NCBI GenBank assembly: GCA_000531095.1
Contig: HG799468.1
Coordinates: 1-52,044 of the forward strand
DNA length: 52,044 nucleotides
Source of the DNA: Gemmata massiliana
Lineage (GTDB): Bacteria; Planctomycetota; Planctomycetia; Gemmatales; Gemmataceae
Direction: 5' to 3'
The notes under the pieces were generated by a model. It was not told where the DNA came from and did no database searches. It was given only the letters and a program-made list of their open reading frames with translations. Shown piece after piece: positions 16,811 to 24,042 of this stretch. Position numbers and translations under genes: made by a program. How positions within the stretch are numbered: the first letter of the stretch is position 1; each line of letters opens with the position of its first letter.

Positions 16811-18577
16811 ATGTCCGCGTTCCTCCCGCAGTTCGATCCCGACCCGACCGCTCGCGCGACCGCACGCGACGCGGCCCGTTTGAAATACCAGTTCAACTAC
16901 ACCTTCGTCTCCCCGCTCGCCGTCATCGACCGCGTCCCGCGCGAGCACGAGTTCTCCCACGAGTGGCTGAAGGTCGTCGGGGACCGGATACTCTTTGTGC
17001 TCTCGAACCGCATCGACCTGGAAGGCAAAACGGAATTCAGCGAGTACCTGCGGAGCAAGCACTCGCTCCTGACCAAAGCGATCGCGTGGGGCGCGGAACT
17101 GTTCCTCGGCGTCCTGCGAGAAATGGTGACCGACTCGCTAAAGTTCACGCTCCGATCGACGGCGCGCCCGGACCGACCGACCGCGCTCAGCGCGTACTCC
17201 GATCTGTTCCGCTCGATCGGGCTTCCGCCGATCAGCGCGACCACGCCCAGCGACCCCGCGTTCGCGCACATGCGCGTGGCCGGGCCGAACCCGGTCATGC
17301 TCCAGCGCATCAGGGCGCTCGACGACCGACTCCCGCTCACCGAGGCCGAGTACCAGCGCGTCGTTCCCGGCGACTCGCTCGCCGCGGCCGGGGCCGAGGG
17401 GCGCCTGTTCCTCGCCGACTACCAACCGCTTCACGGGGCCGTGATGGGCACGTACCCGCACGACGTTCAGAAATACGTCTACGCGCCGCTCGCACTGTTC
17501 GTGACGGACCGCACCACGCGGCAGCTTCGCCCCGTGGCGATCCAGTGCAAGCAGACGCCCGGTCCGGACAACCCGGTGTTCACCCCCGACGACGGCCACA
17601 ACTGGCTGATCGCCAAGACAGTTGTGGAGATCGCGGACGGTAATTTCCACGAAGCCGTTACGCACCTCGCACGCACGCACTTGCTCATCGAACCATTTGT
17701 GATCTGCACCTACCGCCAACTGGCGGCTAACCACCCGTTGTTCGTTCTCCTGGCGCCGCACTTCGACGGCACGCTGGCGATCAACGACGCGAGCTGGCGC
17801 CACCTGATCGCGAACAAAGGCGCGGTAGACCAGTTGTTCGGCGGTACCATCGAGACCTCGCGCCAACTCGCCGCGTCCGGGGTGCAGAGCTACCTGTTCA
17901 ACGAATCCATGCTTCCGAAGGCGCTGGCGGACCGCGGAACGGACAGTGCCGAAACGCTCCCGGAGTACCACTACCGCGATGACGCTCGACTATACTGGGA
18001 CGCGATCCAGAAATGGGTGAGTGACTACCTCGCGCTGTACTACCCGACCGATGGGGAGGTACAGTCGGACCCCGAACTGAAAGCATGGTTAGCCGAAATC
18101 GGGGCCGACACAGGCGGGCGCGTGAGCGGGTTCGGTGTCGGCACGGCCGCCCCGACGCGCGCGTACCTGATCGACGCGGTCACGATGATCCTGTTCACAT
18201 GCAGCGTGCAACACGCCGCGGTGAATTTCCCGCAATACGACGTGATGAGTTACGTCCCCGCGATGCCACTGGCGGGCTACTCGCCCGCTCCGACCTCAAA
18301 GACCGGAGCGACCCCAGCCGACCACCTCGCGATGTTCCCGCCAATGGACATGGCCGAATTGCAAATGGAACTCGGATACATGCTCGGTACGGTCCACTAC
18401 ACCACACTCGGCGAGTACCCGGCCAACTACTTCCTAGACCCCCGCGTGGCCGAACCGCTCACTCAGTTCCAGAAGCAACTTGCCGAGATCGGCCGAACCA
18501 TCGAGCAACGGAACACGACCCGCTTACCGTACCACACGCTGTCGCCTTCCGGCATCCCGCAGAGCATCAACATATGA
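16811..18577 (+). CDS. Lipoxygenase
   Basis: A 588-residue non-heme iron (or manganese) dioxygenase that would insert O2 into polyunsaturated fatty acids with a cis,cis-pentadiene. The full family signature His-X4-His-X4-His-X17-His-X8-His is present at 280, 285, 290, 308 and 317. By alignment with the soybean enzyme the metal ligands are His285, His290, His468, Asn472 (QHAAVN) and the C-terminal carboxylate of Ile588, all intact. There is no PLAT beta-barrel and no signal peptide, so it is a catalytic-domain-only cytosolic form. No Shine-Dalgarno is obvious before the ATG at 16811. No desaturase or fatty-acid gene is nearby. Confident family call; substrate and regiospecificity unknown. Confidence 0.93.
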   Translation: MSAFLPQFDPDPTARATARDAARLKYQFNYTFVSPLAVIDRVPREHEFSHEWLKVVGDRILFVLSNRIDLEGKTEFSEYLRSKHSLLTKAIAWGAELFLGVLREMVTDSLKFTLRSTARPDRPTALSAYSDLFRSIGLPPISATTPSDPAFAHMRVAGPNPVMLQRIRALDDRLPLTEAEYQRVVPGDSLAAAGAEGRLFLADYQPLHGAVMGTYPHDVQKYVYAPLALFVTDRTTRQLRPVAIQCKQTPGPDNPVFTPDDGHNWLIAKTVVEIADGNFHEAVTHLARTHLLIEPFVICTYRQLAANHPLFVLLAPHFDGTLAINDASWRHLIANKGAVDQLFGGTIETSRQLAASGVQSYLFNESMLPKALADRGTDSAETLPEYHYRDDARLYWDAIQKWVSDYLALYYPTDGEVQSDPELKAWLAEIGADTGGRVSGFGVGTAAPTRAYLIDAVTMILFTCSVQHAAVNFPQYDVMSYVPAMPLAGYSPAPTSKTGATPADHLAMFPPMDMAELQMELGYMLGTVHYTTLGEYPANYFLDPRVAEPLTQFQKQLAEIGRTIEQRNTTRLPYHTLSPSGIPQSINI

Positions 18578-18880
18578 GAGCAACCGGTCTTTCCCCTCAT
18601 GCGGTTCGGGTGAACGATCGGTGAAGATGCTTCCGGACTTCATCAATTTCCGACATGTGGCAATTGATGAAAAATCTCTGCGCCGATCGACTCACTCTCA
18701 CAATCGACCGGCGCATTTCTGGACATCTGCGTTTCTTGTGCTCGAAAATAGCCCGAATTGCGCCAACATACTGCCCCGAATCTTAATGAGTATGGGATTC
18801 GGGTTTGGCTTGTTCTGTTACAAACCACAAAGCTATGATGCCGGCCCATTTACTGCCATGCGTTCAGGAGGACGCACGCT
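18578..18880. other. Intergenic region, about 300 bases
   Basis: It is AT-richer than its neighbours (about 18640-18850) and precedes the sulfotransferase, so it probably contains that gene's promoter. No gene, hairpin terminator or repeat is evident apart from the ribosome-binding site at its right end. Confidence 0.4.
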
Positions 18881-18883
18881 TTG
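18866..18883 (+). promoter_or_regulatory. Ribosome-binding site that sets a TTG start
   Basis: A perfect AGGAGG at 18866-18871 is followed by nine bases and TTG at 18881-18883. The nearby ATG at 18858 is out of frame and lies before the Shine-Dalgarno, so the TTG is the likely start of the sulfotransferase. Confidence 0.7.
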
Positions 18884-20104
18884 TGGCAACACTTCGCTGA
18901 CCCTCACGACCGGTTCTGCCACCGGCGCCCCGACTTCCTCGTCATCTCCCCGCCCAAAACGGGATCAACGTGGCTGGCTGCGAACCTCCGACATCACCCC
19001 CAGCTCTTCGTTCCAGAAGTGAAGGAAGTTAAGTACTTCAGTTCCCTCTTCAAGTACCTCGACTTCGGCTGGTACTGCGATCACTTTACTGCTGCTGGGA
19101 ACCGGCAAGCGGGTGAGGCGTCACCGTCGTATGCCTCCCTGCCACTCGCGACCATTCGGCTCATCCGCCAGCTTCTACCAGACATCAAGCTGGTGTTTCT
19201 GATGCGCGAGCCAGTCTCCCGAGCCTGGTCGCACGCCAAGCACAATCACCGGTACCGAGAAGCCAACTTCGCACAAACAGCCACCGACACCGATCTCGTT
19301 ACCGACGACCAGTGGCGGGAGAATTTCGCGCACGACTGGCCCCTCGTCGCGGGCGATTACCTCGGCCAGCTCCGACGGTGGACCTCTGTGTTTCCGGCCG
19401 AGCAACTGTTCGTCGGTTTCTACGAGTCAATCGCCACGAACCCGGCCACACTTCTGCGCGACGTATTCACGTTTCTCGGGGTCGATCCGGAAGTAGACCT
19501 CAGCAGTTTCCCGGTTGAGGAACGCATTCTCCCTGGACCGCCCGGCGACCTTTCGCCCGAACTCACTCAGGCGCTCCGCGGGCTCCTTCGCGCTCGAACG
19601 ACCGAACTCGTTGATTTCGTGGGCGAACGATTCGGACTGGAAGCTCCATCGGAGTGGCAGGCAACGCTCGGCGCACCGACGTTCCCTGCGACCGAACAAC
19701 CTGCGGCATTTCAGTTAGAGAATGACGACGGGTACCTGTCTGGCGTCATGCAGTTGGAAGAGACGTTCGCTTCGGGCCACCGACAGGTGCTATCCGATTA
19801 CCGCGGTTACGACATCGTATTCTCGCGCGGCGCGCTACACGCCGTACCTCGGGACGACGCACGGACATCACGTGAGGAGCCGCTTGTGGCGCCGACGCTG
19901 AGTGAAATGAAAGAGCGGATCACGACACGGTTACTGGAAGCAGCCAGCGCACGGGTACAGTCGGTGGAAGATGAACTGCGAGCAACCCGCGATACCGTGT
20001 CCAGCTTAAGTACCGAACTCGCCGAACTGGTCGCGCTCTCCCGGCGCCCGTCGCTAGCACGCCGACTACTGCACTCGATGCACCTCTCCACTCTTCCCAA
20101 TTAA
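18881..20104 (+). CDS. Sulfotransferase with a C-terminal accessory module
   Basis: A 407-residue PAPS-dependent sulfotransferase that would transfer sulfate to a carbohydrate or lipid. The 5'-phosphosulfate loop is PPKTGSTWL (residues 24-32), and the 3'-phosphate site is REPVSRAWSH (109-118). The catalytic domain ends near residue 255. A further ~55-residue module starts at about 305 with YRGYDIVFSRGALHAVPR and recurs twice in the glycosyltransferase encoded next door. A predicted coiled coil (about 363-392) and a basic tail follow. The start is a TTG with a strong AGGAGG. It converges with the glycosyltransferase across a shared terminator, suggesting sulfated surface glycans. Confidence 0.88.
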   Translation: MWQHFADPHDRFCHRRPDFLVISPPKTGSTWLAANLRHHPQLFVPEVKEVKYFSSLFKYLDFGWYCDHFTAAGNRQAGEASPSYASLPLATIRLIRQLLPDIKLVFLMREPVSRAWSHAKHNHRYREANFAQTATDTDLVTDDQWRENFAHDWPLVAGDYLGQLRRWTSVFPAEQLFVGFYESIATNPATLLRDVFTFLGVDPEVDLSSFPVEERILPGPPGDLSPELTQALRGLLRARTTELVDFVGERFGLEAPSEWQATLGAPTFPATEQPAAFQLENDDGYLSGVMQLEETFASGHRQVLSDYRGYDIVFSRGALHAVPRDDARTSREEPLVAPTLSEMKERITTRLLEAASARVQSVEDELRATRDTVSSLSTELAELVALSRRPSLARRLLHSMHLSTLPN

Positions 20105-20160
20105 GCGTCACGCGATCACACTCCCTCCCGTGATCGCTTCGCCACTGCGACACACAAAAT

Positions 20161-20210
20161 CGAACGCCCCGCGCCCCAAGTGACTTAGCACTCCGGGCGC
20201 GGGGCGTTCG
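20161..20210. terminator. Bidirectional hairpin between sulfotransferase and glycosyltransferase
   Basis: A perfect 16-bp, very GC-rich stem (20161-20176 with 20195-20210) and an 18-base loop lies between two convergent genes, with AAAAT just before it and TTG just after. U-tracts are short, but the stem strength and position make it a good two-way terminator. Confidence 0.75.
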
Positions 20211-20246
20211 TTGCGGCACTTCAATCAGCGAACGTGTGGCGCCAAA

Positions 20247-22121
20247 TCACCCCACTTCGCACGCATCGTCTCGGCAAACTGGCACGCGCTCGTCACGCGA
20301 TTCGGTTTCGACCCGTTGCAGCGTCACGATCCGCTCCGGAGCCACTCCACACGCCCGATCGAGAGCGGCCTTGAGGCCGCGGTTCCACGAATCCAGGTTG
20401 TACTTGCTTTGAACGTCCGCGCGGGCCGCGTGCCCGAGCCGCCGGCGCAGGCTCTGGTCCTCCACCAGACGGGAAACCGATTCTACGATCCCGGCGACCA
20501 CCTCGGGATCGGGCGTGTGCGTGAACTCGTAGTTCTCGCGTAGCATCCCCGCTTCCGAATCAGCCCACGACGCCTTCCCATACCGCCCGCGGACGACCAA
20601 CCCGTTCTGCTCGTGCTCCAGGTACTCTTCCATCCCCCACCCGTCGGAGCCGACGACCGCGAGACCGTAAGACATCGCTTGTAGCAGCGAGACGATGTGA
20701 ACCCGCGCCGCGGGCAACAGATAGATGTCGCTCGCGGCGTGCAGTTCGGCCATTTCCTCGTCAGTCAAGAACCGGTTGACGATGCGCACCCACCCGCCTT
20801 CCAGAATTCGCAGGTAGTGATCGTCCAGGGCCGGCAGCGCGGTGCGCATGGTGAGTCGCAGTTGCGGGTACCGTTTGCGGAGGATCGCGAACGCTTCCAG
20901 TACGTCTAGGCCCCCGCGAACGTAGAAGTTCTCCGGAACCTGGCACCACGAGTTGATGAACAGCAGGTGGATCGGCTCGTCCGCCGGCCGCGGGTCGTGC
21001 CGCTGCCAGCGCTCAGGGAGCCTCACGCCGAGCGGCGCGTAGACCACTTTCTTCTGAATGATCTCGCTCTTGAACAGCGCCGGAACCAGTTCGGCGGTCG
21101 AGCGCATGTGCGTCAGGATCGCCTTGCAGTGGTCGGCTTCGAGCAGCGCCTTTACGATCGGGAAGTACGGCGAATCGGCAAGCGACAGCCCGCACGTGTG
21201 CCCGTTCTGAACGAGCGGGTAGAACAGCGTCGTGGGGTCTTCGATCTCGATGACCCAATCGTTCTGCCCGAAGGTGTACGGCATGCTCGTCAGGAACACC
21301 AGATCCTGGCGCCCGAGGAGCAGTTGCGATTGCAGGTGCCGCGTCTGAAGGAAGTTCAGCACCGCGCCCGGTTTGCACCCGCGCCACAACAGGGTCACGA
21401 GCAGCCGAACGAACGCGACAAAAACCGCGACTCGCGTCGCGATCGTGACGCCCCGTTGCGGGCGCACGAAATTAAAGGCACTTCGCACCGCGAACCACGC
21501 ACTGCGTGTCGCTTTCGCGAGTTTCTGGCCCATACGCGCACATCGCGCCCGCGGCCCCCGACTACTCTGCACCGGGCGCGGCTTCTCGGCCGGGGGAGCG
21601 GATCGAGTGAACCGGTACCCCTCCGGCGGGTTCCCGGTGTGCTTGAACTGCGGGTGGGCGCCACAATTACCCGACACCGAAAAGATCGGGAGCCAGCCCG
21701 CGAACTCGACCGGCGTGCTCGCCGCGATGCGCTGAACGGTCTTCTCCAGTTCCTCCGCGCTGGTCCCCGAAATGACCCCGACGCGCTGCCGGTCCCCCGG
21801 CACATCCAGATCAACGGCACCAGCCGATCGAGGTACCGCGAAGAACGCCCCTCGATGGCGGACGATGTCGTAATCCGCCACTTGCTTGAGGGTTTCCGTT
21901 CGCTCCGTGCGTTCGTCCCAACCGTCCACGAGTCGCTCCACTTCCGCGAGCGTGGGCGCGGACAGAACGGCGGGGTGCCGGTCCAACATCCCGGGCGTGC
22001 TCAGGATGCGCTCGACGTGTGCAGTCGGTGGTACGGCGTGAATCCGTCCGTGAATGCGGATCAGGCGGAACCCCTTGTACGACTCCGGAAACGGAGTCTT
22101 ATCACGGCGCCCCAGATGCAT
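20247..22121 (-). CDS. GT4-like glycosyltransferase with two N-terminal accessory modules
   Basis: A 624-residue protein. About residues 320-610 are a GT-B glycosyltransferase C-terminal half: LLFINSW, the segment FYVRGGLDVLEAFAILRKRY, and the donor-binding region SLLQAMSYGLAVVGSDGWGMEEYLEH with the usual glutamate. The N-terminus is unusual: two copies of a ~50-residue module, the first with SYKGFRLIRIHGRIHAVP (14-31), the second with ADYDIVRHRGAFFAVPR (82-98), each followed by a helix like APTLAEVERLV. A short Cys-containing segment (GWLPIFSVSGNCGAHPQFKH, about 142-161) comes next. The adjacent genes encode other glycan enzymes. The acceptor is unknown. Confidence 0.85.
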   Translation of the reverse strand: MHLGRRDKTPFPESYKGFRLIRIHGRIHAVPPTAHVERILSTPGMLDRHPAVLSAPTLAEVERLVDGWDERTERTETLKQVADYDIVRHRGAFFAVPRSAGAVDLDVPGDRQRVGVISGTSAEELEKTVQRIAASTPVEFAGWLPIFSVSGNCGAHPQFKHTGNPPEGYRFTRSAPPAEKPRPVQSSRGPRARCARMGQKLAKATRSAWFAVRSAFNFVRPQRGVTIATRVAVFVAFVRLLVTLLWRGCKPGAVLNFLQTRHLQSQLLLGRQDLVFLTSMPYTFGQNDWVIEIEDPTTLFYPLVQNGHTCGLSLADSPYFPIVKALLEADHCKAILTHMRSTAELVPALFKSEIIQKKVVYAPLGVRLPERWQRHDPRPADEPIHLLFINSWCQVPENFYVRGGLDVLEAFAILRKRYPQLRLTMRTALPALDDHYLRILEGGWVRIVNRFLTDEEMAELHAASDIYLLPAARVHIVSLLQAMSYGLAVVGSDGWGMEEYLEHEQNGLVVRGRYGKASWADSEAGMLRENYEFTHTPDPEVVAGIVESVSRLVEDQSLRRRLGHAARADVQSKYNLDSWNRGLKAALDRACGVAPERIVTLQRVETESRDERVPVCRDDACEVG

Positions 22122-22195
22122 AACTGATGTCCAGAGTGTGGTTGTGCGGGTTCAGTGAGAGGTCAATGCAGCAACGAGTAACGGCCGCCGGTCGA

Positions 22196-23086
22196 TCAGG
22201 CGAAAATGGAGACGAGGTTCCGGCGCATTTTGCGGAAAATGCGGCTCGGTAACCGGCGCACCGGTTGAGAACGGACCTTCCGCCACGTGCCCTCGAGCTT
22301 CGATCCCCAGCTCGGGCGGAAATCGGTCCCGTGAACCATGTTCAGGTAGACGTTGCGGGCCTGCCGGCGCACCAGCTCGAACCAGTATTTGTTGAGCGGC
22401 CCAACATTGTTGGTCAGCTCCATGTTGTTGTAGGTCACCGCGGTCCCGACGCTCGCGGGGCGCTCGTACTCCCCACCGCGCTCGTAGAACGGCGTGTGCT
22501 GCTTCCAGATCACGATCCCGTACAGGTCGTACAGGGCGACCGAAAGCCCCATCAGCCAGCTATCGACGTTCGCCTGCCAGCCGAAGTTCTGGCACACTTC
22601 GATGAGCCGCGCGCTAATGACCGGCGACCAACACCCGAACGAAACGACCCACTGGCGGACCGCCTCTTCTTGCTCATAAATTCCCGCGAACGATTCGATC
22701 GGGGGCCGGCGGTACCCCATGATGCAGAACTCGTCCTTGACGTCGAGAATTTCCGAGACGAACCCGGGCCGGTTGAAATAGAAGTCGTCGGCCGTCATCA
22801 GGCAGAACCGCGAACGCGGGTCGCGCTGCGCGAACATGTACTCTTGTGCGTGGTGCAACCCGTGGCGCCCCTCGCCGCGCGACCAGACGAACGTGCGCAC
22901 CGCGAACGGGTACTTGGCAAAAAAGCTGTCGGGCAGCCGGGCATCGTCGTCGGAATCGAACTTGATGAGGAACTCGATCTGCTCGCGCTCGGCGGGCGTC
23001 GTGCAGGCCACGGTCGAGTCGAGCAACCGCTGCAAGCCAGAATCGGGGTTGCCCTTCTCGCGGGAGCAGAACAGGACGCTAATCAT
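22196..23086 (-). CDS. Glycosyltransferase-like protein, GT-A type
   Basis: A 296-residue protein with the start of a GT2-style fold: MISVLFCSREKGNPDSGLQR, then LIKFDSDDDARLPDSF, and a DxD-like motif in CLMTADDFYFNRPGF (about residues 95-109). No membrane segment; the basic C-terminus (RKVRSQPVRRLPSRIFRKMRR) could bind membrane. It follows the permease gene and precedes the larger glycosyltransferase on the same strand, so it probably belongs to a glycan assembly operon. The start has GGGAGGG upstream. The fold is inferred from motif order only, and it could instead be a non-catalytic relative. Confidence 0.6.
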   Translation of the reverse strand: MISVLFCSREKGNPDSGLQRLLDSTVACTTPAEREQIEFLIKFDSDDDARLPDSFFAKYPFAVRTFVWSRGEGRHGLHHAQEYMFAQRDPRSRFCLMTADDFYFNRPGFVSEILDVKDEFCIMGYRRPPIESFAGIYEQEEAVRQWVVSFGCWSPVISARLIEVCQNFGWQANVDSWLMGLSVALYDLYGIVIWKQHTPFYERGGEYERPASVGTAVTYNNMELTNNVGPLNKYWFELVRRQARNVYLNMVHGTDFRPSWGSKLEGTWRKVRSQPVRRLPSRIFRKMRRNLVSIFA

Positions 23087-23256: not shown

Positions 23257-24042
23257 TCACAGGTGGAACACGACTCGCTTCTGGAACCACGACGTCGTTA
23301 CGGCGGCGAGTCCGAGTAGGGCCGCTGTGCAAGCGGTACCGTACACGTACAGTTTCGCATCCGGGAGGCTCCCGTGGATTAGCGGGTAGCGCACCAGTTC
23401 CAGGTACAAGTTCATCGGGTTAAAGCGGGCCATCCACCCGAGCCCCTTACCGACAAGCAAATCGGCCGGGTACACGATCGGCGTCAAGAAGAACAAGATC
23501 TGTGCAGCGATCTCAAGCAAGTGCTTCGTGTCGTGGAAGTAGGCTTGCGCGAATGCAAAAATCGTCGCGATCGCCCAGCCCGCGGCAAAGACCAGGAACA
23601 GCGCGGGCACAACCGCCCATAGGAATTGGAGCTTGTCGCAGTTGCCGTCCAGTATCGCGATCGCGGCGACCGCGACCCCGAGCGCGAACATGCTCTGGAT
23701 CGCGTACCCGAGCACGAAACGCAGCGAATACAGCCCGAACGGGAGCGGGTGCTGGCGGATGTACGACTCGTGGGAGATGATCGCGAGGCACCCGCTGACC
23801 GCGCACTCGCGGAAGAACCCCCAGACCGCCAGCCCCAGCAGCAGCATCCGCGTGTAGCCCGCGGGCGAGAGCATGAGGACGCCGCTGAACACGGTGACGT
23901 AAGTGGCGGCCATCGTCATCGGGTGGATGAGCGACCACACCCCGCCGAGCCACGATCGCTTGTACCTCAGCCGGAGATCGAGCCGGACGAGGGCCATCAG
24001 GAAGCTCCGAAACTTCCAGATCGCGGTCACTTGGTTCAACAT
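23257..24042 (-). CDS. Polysaccharide-export-type ABC permease
   Basis: A 261-residue ABC-2 permease of the Wzm/KpsM/TagG group, which moves undecaprenyl-linked or lipid-linked glycans across the inner membrane. The N-terminal amphipathic gate helix with LVRLDLRLRYKRSWLGGVWSLIHP (residues about 17-40) is diagnostic of this group, and six membrane helices follow (for example FVLGYAIQSMFALGVAVAAIAIL). It is the first gene of the minus-strand glycan set. The partner ATPase (Wzt/KpsT/TagH) is expected next to it but is absent from this window. Its 5' region is the divergent spacer shared with the DUF1553 gene. Confidence 0.85.
   Translation of the reverse strand: MLNQVTAIWKFRSFLMALVRLDLRLRYKRSWLGGVWSLIHPMTMAATYVTVFSGVLMLSPAGYTRMLLLGLAVWGFFRECAVSGCLAIISHESYIRQHPLPFGLYSLRFVLGYAIQSMFALGVAVAAIAILDGNCDKLQFLWAVVPALFLVFAAGWAIATIFAFAQAYFHDTKHLLEIAAQILFFLTPIVYPADLLVGKGLGWMARFNPMNLYLELVRYPLIHGSLPDAKLYVYGTACTAALLGLAAVTTSWFQKRVVFHL

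Follow-up and report, generated by a model that had tools for sequence, protein, structure and literature searches.

The window analysed here, a stretch of 52,044 nucleotides from Gemmata massiliana (assembly GCA_000531095.1, contig HG799468.1, positions 1 to 52,044), encodes a sulfotransferase and a GT4-type (family 4) glycosyltransferase whose adjacent genes are arranged tail to tail and share a small repeated module. These two genes hold the only significant matches to this module in the window genome, at three places; no further significant copy was found, the fourth match having an E-value (E) of 1.7. The genes and module copies are listed below, with some positions given on stop-to-stop open reading frames (ORFs).

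18881..20104, + strand: sulfotransferase gene, 407 amino acids (aa), one C-terminal module (TTG start as listed; Pfam Sulfotransfer_1, E 2.9e-16, residues 17-202)
19790..19924, + strand: sulfotransferase module copy, middle shortened (profile match, residues 318-362 of stop-to-stop ORF 18839-20101)
20247..22121, - strand: GT4-type glycosyltransferase gene, 624 aa, two N-terminal modules (Pfam Glyco_trans_1_4, E 2.5e-10; GT-B structural matches)
21921..22091, - strand: glycosyltransferase module copy 1 (profile match, residues 21-77 of stop-to-stop ORF 20250-22151)
21732..21884, - strand: glycosyltransferase module copy 2 (profile match, residues 90-140 of stop-to-stop ORF 20250-22151)

The earlier note on this DNA had pointed to three similar strings as traces of a module common to the two enzymes. 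All three are present: YRGYDIVFSRGALHAVPR at residues 307-324 of the sulfotransferase (DNA from 19799, + strand), within two residues of the place given, SYKGFRLIRIHGRIHAVP at residues 14-31 of the glycosyltransferase (22082-22029, - strand) and ADYDIVRHRGAFFAVPR at residues 82-98 of the same protein (21878-21828, - strand). The sulfotransferase scores 60.1 bits against a Sulfotransfer_1 cut-off of 22, which places it on sequence grounds among the enzymes dependent on 3'-phosphoadenosine 5'-phosphosulfate. The note had also proposed a profile search, a structure prediction and a survey of catalytic partners and phyla as checks; all were carried out, and the profile search finds all three copies.

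The similarity between the three segments was assessed by shuffling and by profile search. With 1000 shuffles per pair, the observed score was never reached for the sulfotransferase against copy 1 or copy 2 and was reached once for copy 1 against copy 2. A profile of 36 rows (A1) was built from the three window copies and copies from relatives (one genome-contig scan and 11 loci), with 6 of the 42 aligned units left out. The leave-out profile, made of the 33 rows of A1 from outside the window, was searched against 500 window ORFs and recovered copy 2 at E 1e-18, copy 1 at E 1.1e-14 and the sulfotransferase copy at E 3.4e-5, while the best E among 10,000 shuffled ORFs (20 sets of 500) was 9.2e-4. 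On the other side, a profile of the 16 Nitrospinae rows alone recovers only glycosyltransferase copy 2 (E 2.9e-12); its matches to a fragment near copy 1 (E 0.92) and to the sulfotransferase copy (E 3.5) do not exceed those to shuffled ORFs, the best of which is 0.094. Chance resemblance of the three segments is ruled out by the leave-out profile and the shuffles together, and by sequence the segments are homologous copies of one module, in agreement with the earlier proposal.

Each unit spans approximately 50-65 residues, and the module is a tandem repeat that reaches 16 copies. The model, alignment and consensus give the order of elements as an aromatic-rich beta-hairpin, a short helix, a strand and a helix starting [ST]-L-E-E-[LV], with a hairpin consensus of roughly Y-x-G-[YF]-N-[IL]-[VI]-x-[YF]-x-G-x-[FY]-[YF]-[AG]-[VI]-P. 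The AlphaFold prediction of the two glycosyltransferase copies, made with 22 sequences, has a mean local confidence (pLDDT) of 91.6 and a template-modelling score (pTM) of 0.68, and copy 2 bears one extra strand in front. Both units are kept in the full-length GT4 model (10 sequences, pLDDT 77.0). The description of the module as beta-rich is half right, the unit being alpha/beta in the model. Likewise, the letters of the APTLxEV helix reported after two of the three strings are right (APTLSEM, APTLAEV), but the third copy has an equivalent helix (TSAEELEKTV). The window sulfotransferase copy has 15 residues fewer in its middle than the copy of its relative L007 in the alignment. The consensus conserves aromatics, Gly/Ala, Pro and hydrophobic residues, and its commonest polar residues are Asp (52%), Asn (45%) and Asp (45%); this pattern does not have a catalytic look, and the module is on that basis a predicted non-catalytic unit. 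Five of the first 16 consensus positions are often aromatic, which may suit a carbohydrate-binding surface and equally a packed core.

The modules lie outside the catalytic fold of the glycosyltransferase, which scores 41.2 bits against a cut-off of 27 for Pfam PF13692 and is thereby placed in the GT4/GT-B group. Two further features belong to this catalytic part.

20343..21722, - strand: GT-B catalytic fold, approximately residues 134-593, directly after module 2 (structural alignments to GT-B enzymes)
21600..21710, - strand: conserved element EFAGWLPxFxxxGxCGxHPQFxHxxxPPxGYRF, located where the GT-B fold starts (columns invariant in alignment A3)

Among the matches listed, GT-B alignments begin at residues 131-136 in 48 of 50 rows, with the two remaining rows, both trehalose synthase TreT, beginning at residues 115 and 112. 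The GT4 enzymes GlgM, PglA and BshA resemble the catalytic part of the window enzyme with Z of about 26-27.5 (GlgM, 6tvp_A: VIA Z 27.5, root-mean-square deviation (rmsd) 5.0, 339 aligned), and their alignments begin at residues 132-136, i.e. after the modules. No module was detected in the GT4 relatives L007 5881-7335, L008 8017-9588 and L098 1458-2888, or in the sulfotransferase relatives L009 299-1780 and L065 486-1754. The alignment starts and the GT4 relatives without a detected module rule out that the module is part of the GT-B fold, and because it lies outside this fold and goes undetected in some relatives of both enzymes, the module is accessory. The conserved element, with one invariant Cys and two invariant His, is also found in the GT4 relatives of L007, L008 and L098 in which no module was detected.

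A total of 36 module copies were scanned against Pfam and NCBIfam. No family was matched by more than one copy in either library and none reached its cut-off, the best E being 0.074 in Pfam and 0.0033 (NF002574) in NCBIfam, in keeping with the earlier note's failure to assign a family. The window GT4 modules and the core of the window sulfotransferase module matched no Pfam model at E up to 10, and the window copies matched no NCBIfam model at E up to 1; DUF5798 (Pfam, E 0.17) falls on the last helix of the sulfotransferase module and beyond, at residues 340-386. The matches of NF002574 to one copy, of DUF2854 (E 0.049) touching the module region, of NF006983 (E 0.066) partly over the module and of DUF5520, Glyco_trans_1_2 and TPP1 (E 0.001, 0.0015 and 0.009) on the 16-copy array of L062 are all below cut-off and were taken as chance. 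PHROGs gave weak matches only, each to one of the 36 copies. No family of carbohydrate-binding modules (CBMs) or lectins occurs among the Pfam matches of the bearers and module copies (E up to 10; further bearers, E up to 0.05).

Structure libraries gave a similar outcome, as the two-module model has no Foldseek match of E < 0.001 in PDB or BFVD, which is not proof of a new fold. The closest structural rows are MmoD (6d7k, Z 4.6, 53 residues, rmsd 2.5), AP2 (6sy0, Z 3.8, 54 residues, rmsd 3.7) and an integrase arm-binding domain (3rmp, Z 3.5, 50 residues, rmsd 3.0). These are small strand-plus-helix proteins, with Z in the range of common arrangements, and no common sequence family or function is shown. 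Fur-like PDB matches (E 0.02-0.3) span just 21-24 residues. An origin of the module from solute-binding proteins was rejected, as matches to these are weak (E 0.1 or worse) and no such Pfam match occurs in the 36 copies. Narrow word searches of the literature returned nothing evidently on the module, and its novelty in print is limited to what these searches covered. The module seems to be an accessory module of glycan enzymes, a known kind, belonging to an undescribed family with an unusually broad range of partners.

This range became apparent from a set of 67 module-bearing ORFs containing 148 units of 20 bits or more. The set is redundant: at least four genomes were fetched by two routes and contribute the same gene twice, a single long ORF is split over two loci, and the broken gene of L011 counts as two ORFs. 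With the modules masked, BLAST groups the bearers into GT4 (26), GT2 (11), sulfotransferase (11), CDP-glycerol transferase-like (4), radical SAM/SPASM (3) and an adenylyl-sulfate (APS) kinase pair from Azospirillum (2), leaving 10 ungrouped. Pfam was run on 27 module-bearing ORFs; two of the four CDP-glycerol transferase-like members have a Pfam match, and some GT2 members score under the cut-off. Ungrouped bearers named by Pfam are a sulfotransferase (L010 2-2404, the same as L063 7684-10260), two methyltransferases (L088 5168-6607 and L092) and a radical SAM protein (L065) whose B12-binding match is below cut-off. Three of the 27 (L087 6031-8424, L020 and L103) have no Pfam match at E up to 0.05, and L089 2731-4923 has weak, unrelated matches only; read by eye, L020 appears to have a lipoprotein start and L103 many membrane spans. 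The suggested reuse of the module in glycan enzymes thus extends to many more enzyme types than the original two. The Azospirillum plasmid proteins (L040 9421-12015 and L041 9430-12048) are annotated as adenylyl-sulfate kinase and carry two modules ahead of the APS kinase domain, with Pfam applied to L040 alone; their N-terminal part looks sulfotransferase-like by eye.

Between 1 and 16 matched stretches occur per protein. The largest number belongs to a 1510-aa radical SAM/SPASM protein from a Nitrospinae genome (L062 6362-10891). L087 8396-11692 has 12 stretches, one at only 8 bits, and two short ORFs (L062 5860-6300 and L064 3097-3570) consist mostly of two modules each. In the two longest arrays, a copy resembles its neighbours more than it does remote copies (55 v 46% and 50 v 42%), as expected from tandem duplication; in the two shorter arrays tested the difference is small (36 v 34% and 26 v 23%).

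Whole-genome surveys covered Planctomycetota and the phylum of the Nitrospinae genome, counting matches at E 0.001 or better and including the centre genome. The module was found in 23 of 95 genomes of the window's family, at least 21 of 297 of its class, at least 2 of 294 genomes sampled evenly from its phylum and 3 of 77 from the phylum to which the Nitrospinae genome belongs. The class and phylum-sample counts are lower bounds because at most 21 candidates were scored per genome. Five tblastn queries against 72,556 plasmid records matched two, both Azospirillum, and one five-copy query gave no match in phage records or IMG/VR. Occurrence is patchy and extends over Planctomycetota, Nitrospinota and the two Azospirillum plasmids. 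Within the window's class but outside its family, genome G660 has five bearer ORFs. By reading, one is a GT4 with three copies, two are L107 proteins in which several stretches match, one (L108) resembles a sulfotransferase and one (L106) has many membrane spans.

Upstream of the window glycosyltransferase lie two genes that recur beside its relatives.

22196..23086, - strand: 296-aa protein, often conserved beside GT4 (no Pfam or NCBIfam match)
23257..24042, - strand: ABC-2 (Wzm-like) polysaccharide export permease (Pfam ABC2_membrane, E 3.5e-12)

The permease also matches the NCBIfam galactan export permease model at E 2.2e-28 and 99.6 bits, under its cut-off of 380. The order permease, 296-aa protein and GT4 recurs in planctomycetes. 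Among eight planctomycete loci with a repeat-bearing GT4 (L001-L006, L008 and L009; BLAST E 1e-10), a relative of the 296-aa protein is upstream of GT4 in six, three of the eight additionally have a relative of the permease, and neither is present in L006 or L009; some loci end short of the position in question. A GT4 relative in Gemmatales KatS3mg105 (L011 5983-7820) is broken into several frames, reflecting a pseudogene or sequencing errors. The window sulfotransferase is adjoined by a lipoxygenase gene (16811-18577, + strand; Pfam Lipoxygenase, E 1.9e-56), and such genes are uncommon in bacteria.

Bearers often sit beside ABC polysaccharide exporters, and in Nitrospinota also beside sulfate-activation genes. 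On the Nitrospinae contig PCWG01000002.1 (L010; L063, L064), six adjacent ORFs carry the module: a sulfotransferase, a GT2, a GT2-GT4 fusion, a GT2, a module-only ORF and a radical SAM/SPASM protein. Just upstream are genes for an APS kinase, an ABC-2 permease and a Wzt-type ATPase with the Wzt_C domain. In two genomes of the same phylum, G408 (L087, L088) and G407 (L089), a Wzt_C ATPase stands beside the bearers in all three loci scanned, and L087 also contains an ABC-2 permease, an APS kinase and an ATP sulfurylase. GT4 and sulfotransferase copies share one contig in five genomes (the window genome, G302, G303, G304 and G319) and lie within 3 kb in four of them. These do not amount to five independent cases because the GT4 catalytic parts of G302 and G304 are close to that of the window (98% and 91% identity).

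Since the module is separable, predicted to be non-catalytic from its conservation and common to different enzymes of like pathways, the simplest account is recognition or docking, and the module is probably, though by no means certainly, a non-catalytic unit that brings enzymes of a surface-glycan pathway to a common target. The module would have been attached repeatedly to enzymes of surface-polysaccharide assembly, including sugar transferases, sulfotransferases, and sulfate-activating and other modifying enzymes, and several enzymes of one pathway bearing it would be held together at that target. The target could be the polysaccharide as it grows, to be sulfated later, or a protein partner that the enzymes have in common near the ABC (ATP-binding cassette; Wzm/Wzt) exporter, and many copies would provide avidity. 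Several observations weigh against this reading. For a few bearers, namely the lipoprotein-like L020 (by eye) and L065, a glycan role is not clear. The GT4 and sulfotransferase copies of G303 are about 390 kb apart, and the bearers of G386 are spread over eight contigs, the assembly being fragmented. The loci came from GT4 or module searches and so give no independent sample of neighbourhoods; no Wzt ATPase or sulfate-activation gene was identified in the window cluster, the whole window not having been scanned for these; and no structural relative with a known ligand is among the structure-library matches.

The recognition or docking account has two special cases, each somewhat short of probable when taken alone. 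One, a fair but tentative candidate, is that the module binds the nascent or sulfated polysaccharide in the manner of a CBM and keeps processive and decorating enzymes on the chain. This would fit catalytic partners for which the polymer is the likely common substrate, the five often-aromatic consensus positions and the presence of Wzt_C, a glycan-binding domain, in the same Nitrospinota clusters, but no CBM or lectin family is matched, the aromatics may form a core and the short two-module ORFs fit protein docking equally. The other, on which we are more doubtful, is that the modules hold the enzymes in one complex at the exporter by binding to one another or to a shared scaffold; different enzymes of one cluster do bear the same module, and the short module-only ORFs could cross-link them, but no partner domain was found, four Wzt ATPases and two permeases showing only ABC, AAA-like, Wzt_C and ABC-2 domains. 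A spacer or stabilising role with no particular partner, in a repeat multiplied by tandem duplication, is unlikely. Low conservation (average 23-27% identity to units of other proteins in four arrays tested), the wide range of copy number and the shortened window sulfotransferase copy would all be consistent with a spacer, but attachment of the module to unrelated enzymes of like pathways and an aromatic/Gly/Pro pattern retained across phyla speak against this. Chance or convergent similarity, for example with the G-K-x-Y-x-V-P segment of sugar-binding solute-binding proteins, is very improbable: the module profile does match such proteins weakly (GacH and others, E 0.1-1.6, mostly over part of the profile), but the leave-out profile, the regular spacing of full-length tandem repeats and the confident common fold of the model speak against it.

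CBMs of carbohydrate-active enzymes are small and non-catalytic and are found fused, often as tandem copies, to many unrelated glycan enzymes; the module resembles them in these respects. It differs in that it has no above-cut-off Pfam match, its bearers look biosynthetic and its carbohydrate binding is putative. Wzt_C (PF14524) of ABC polysaccharide exporters occurs in the same Nitrospinota gene clusters, but it is a 143-position model located on the ATPase, and none of the 36 module copies match it. A broader and rather speculative extension of recognition or docking is that bacterial surface-glycan assembly uses the module as a general addressing tag. It would be worn by many enzymes of a sulfated-polysaccharide pathway, modules on different enzymes would read the same polymer or each other, copy number would tune how firmly each enzyme is held, and the membrane exporter and soluble enzymes would form one assembly line.

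Absent from every family library scanned, this promiscuous domain marks enzymes of the same glycan pathway and is thus usable for finding such clusters, including enzymes not usually linked to glycans such as the radical SAM/SPASM proteins. It also offers a handle on how cytoplasmic polysaccharide enzymes are kept close to ABC exporters, and on the sulfated polymers that Planctomycetota, Nitrospinota and Azospirillum may have at their surface.

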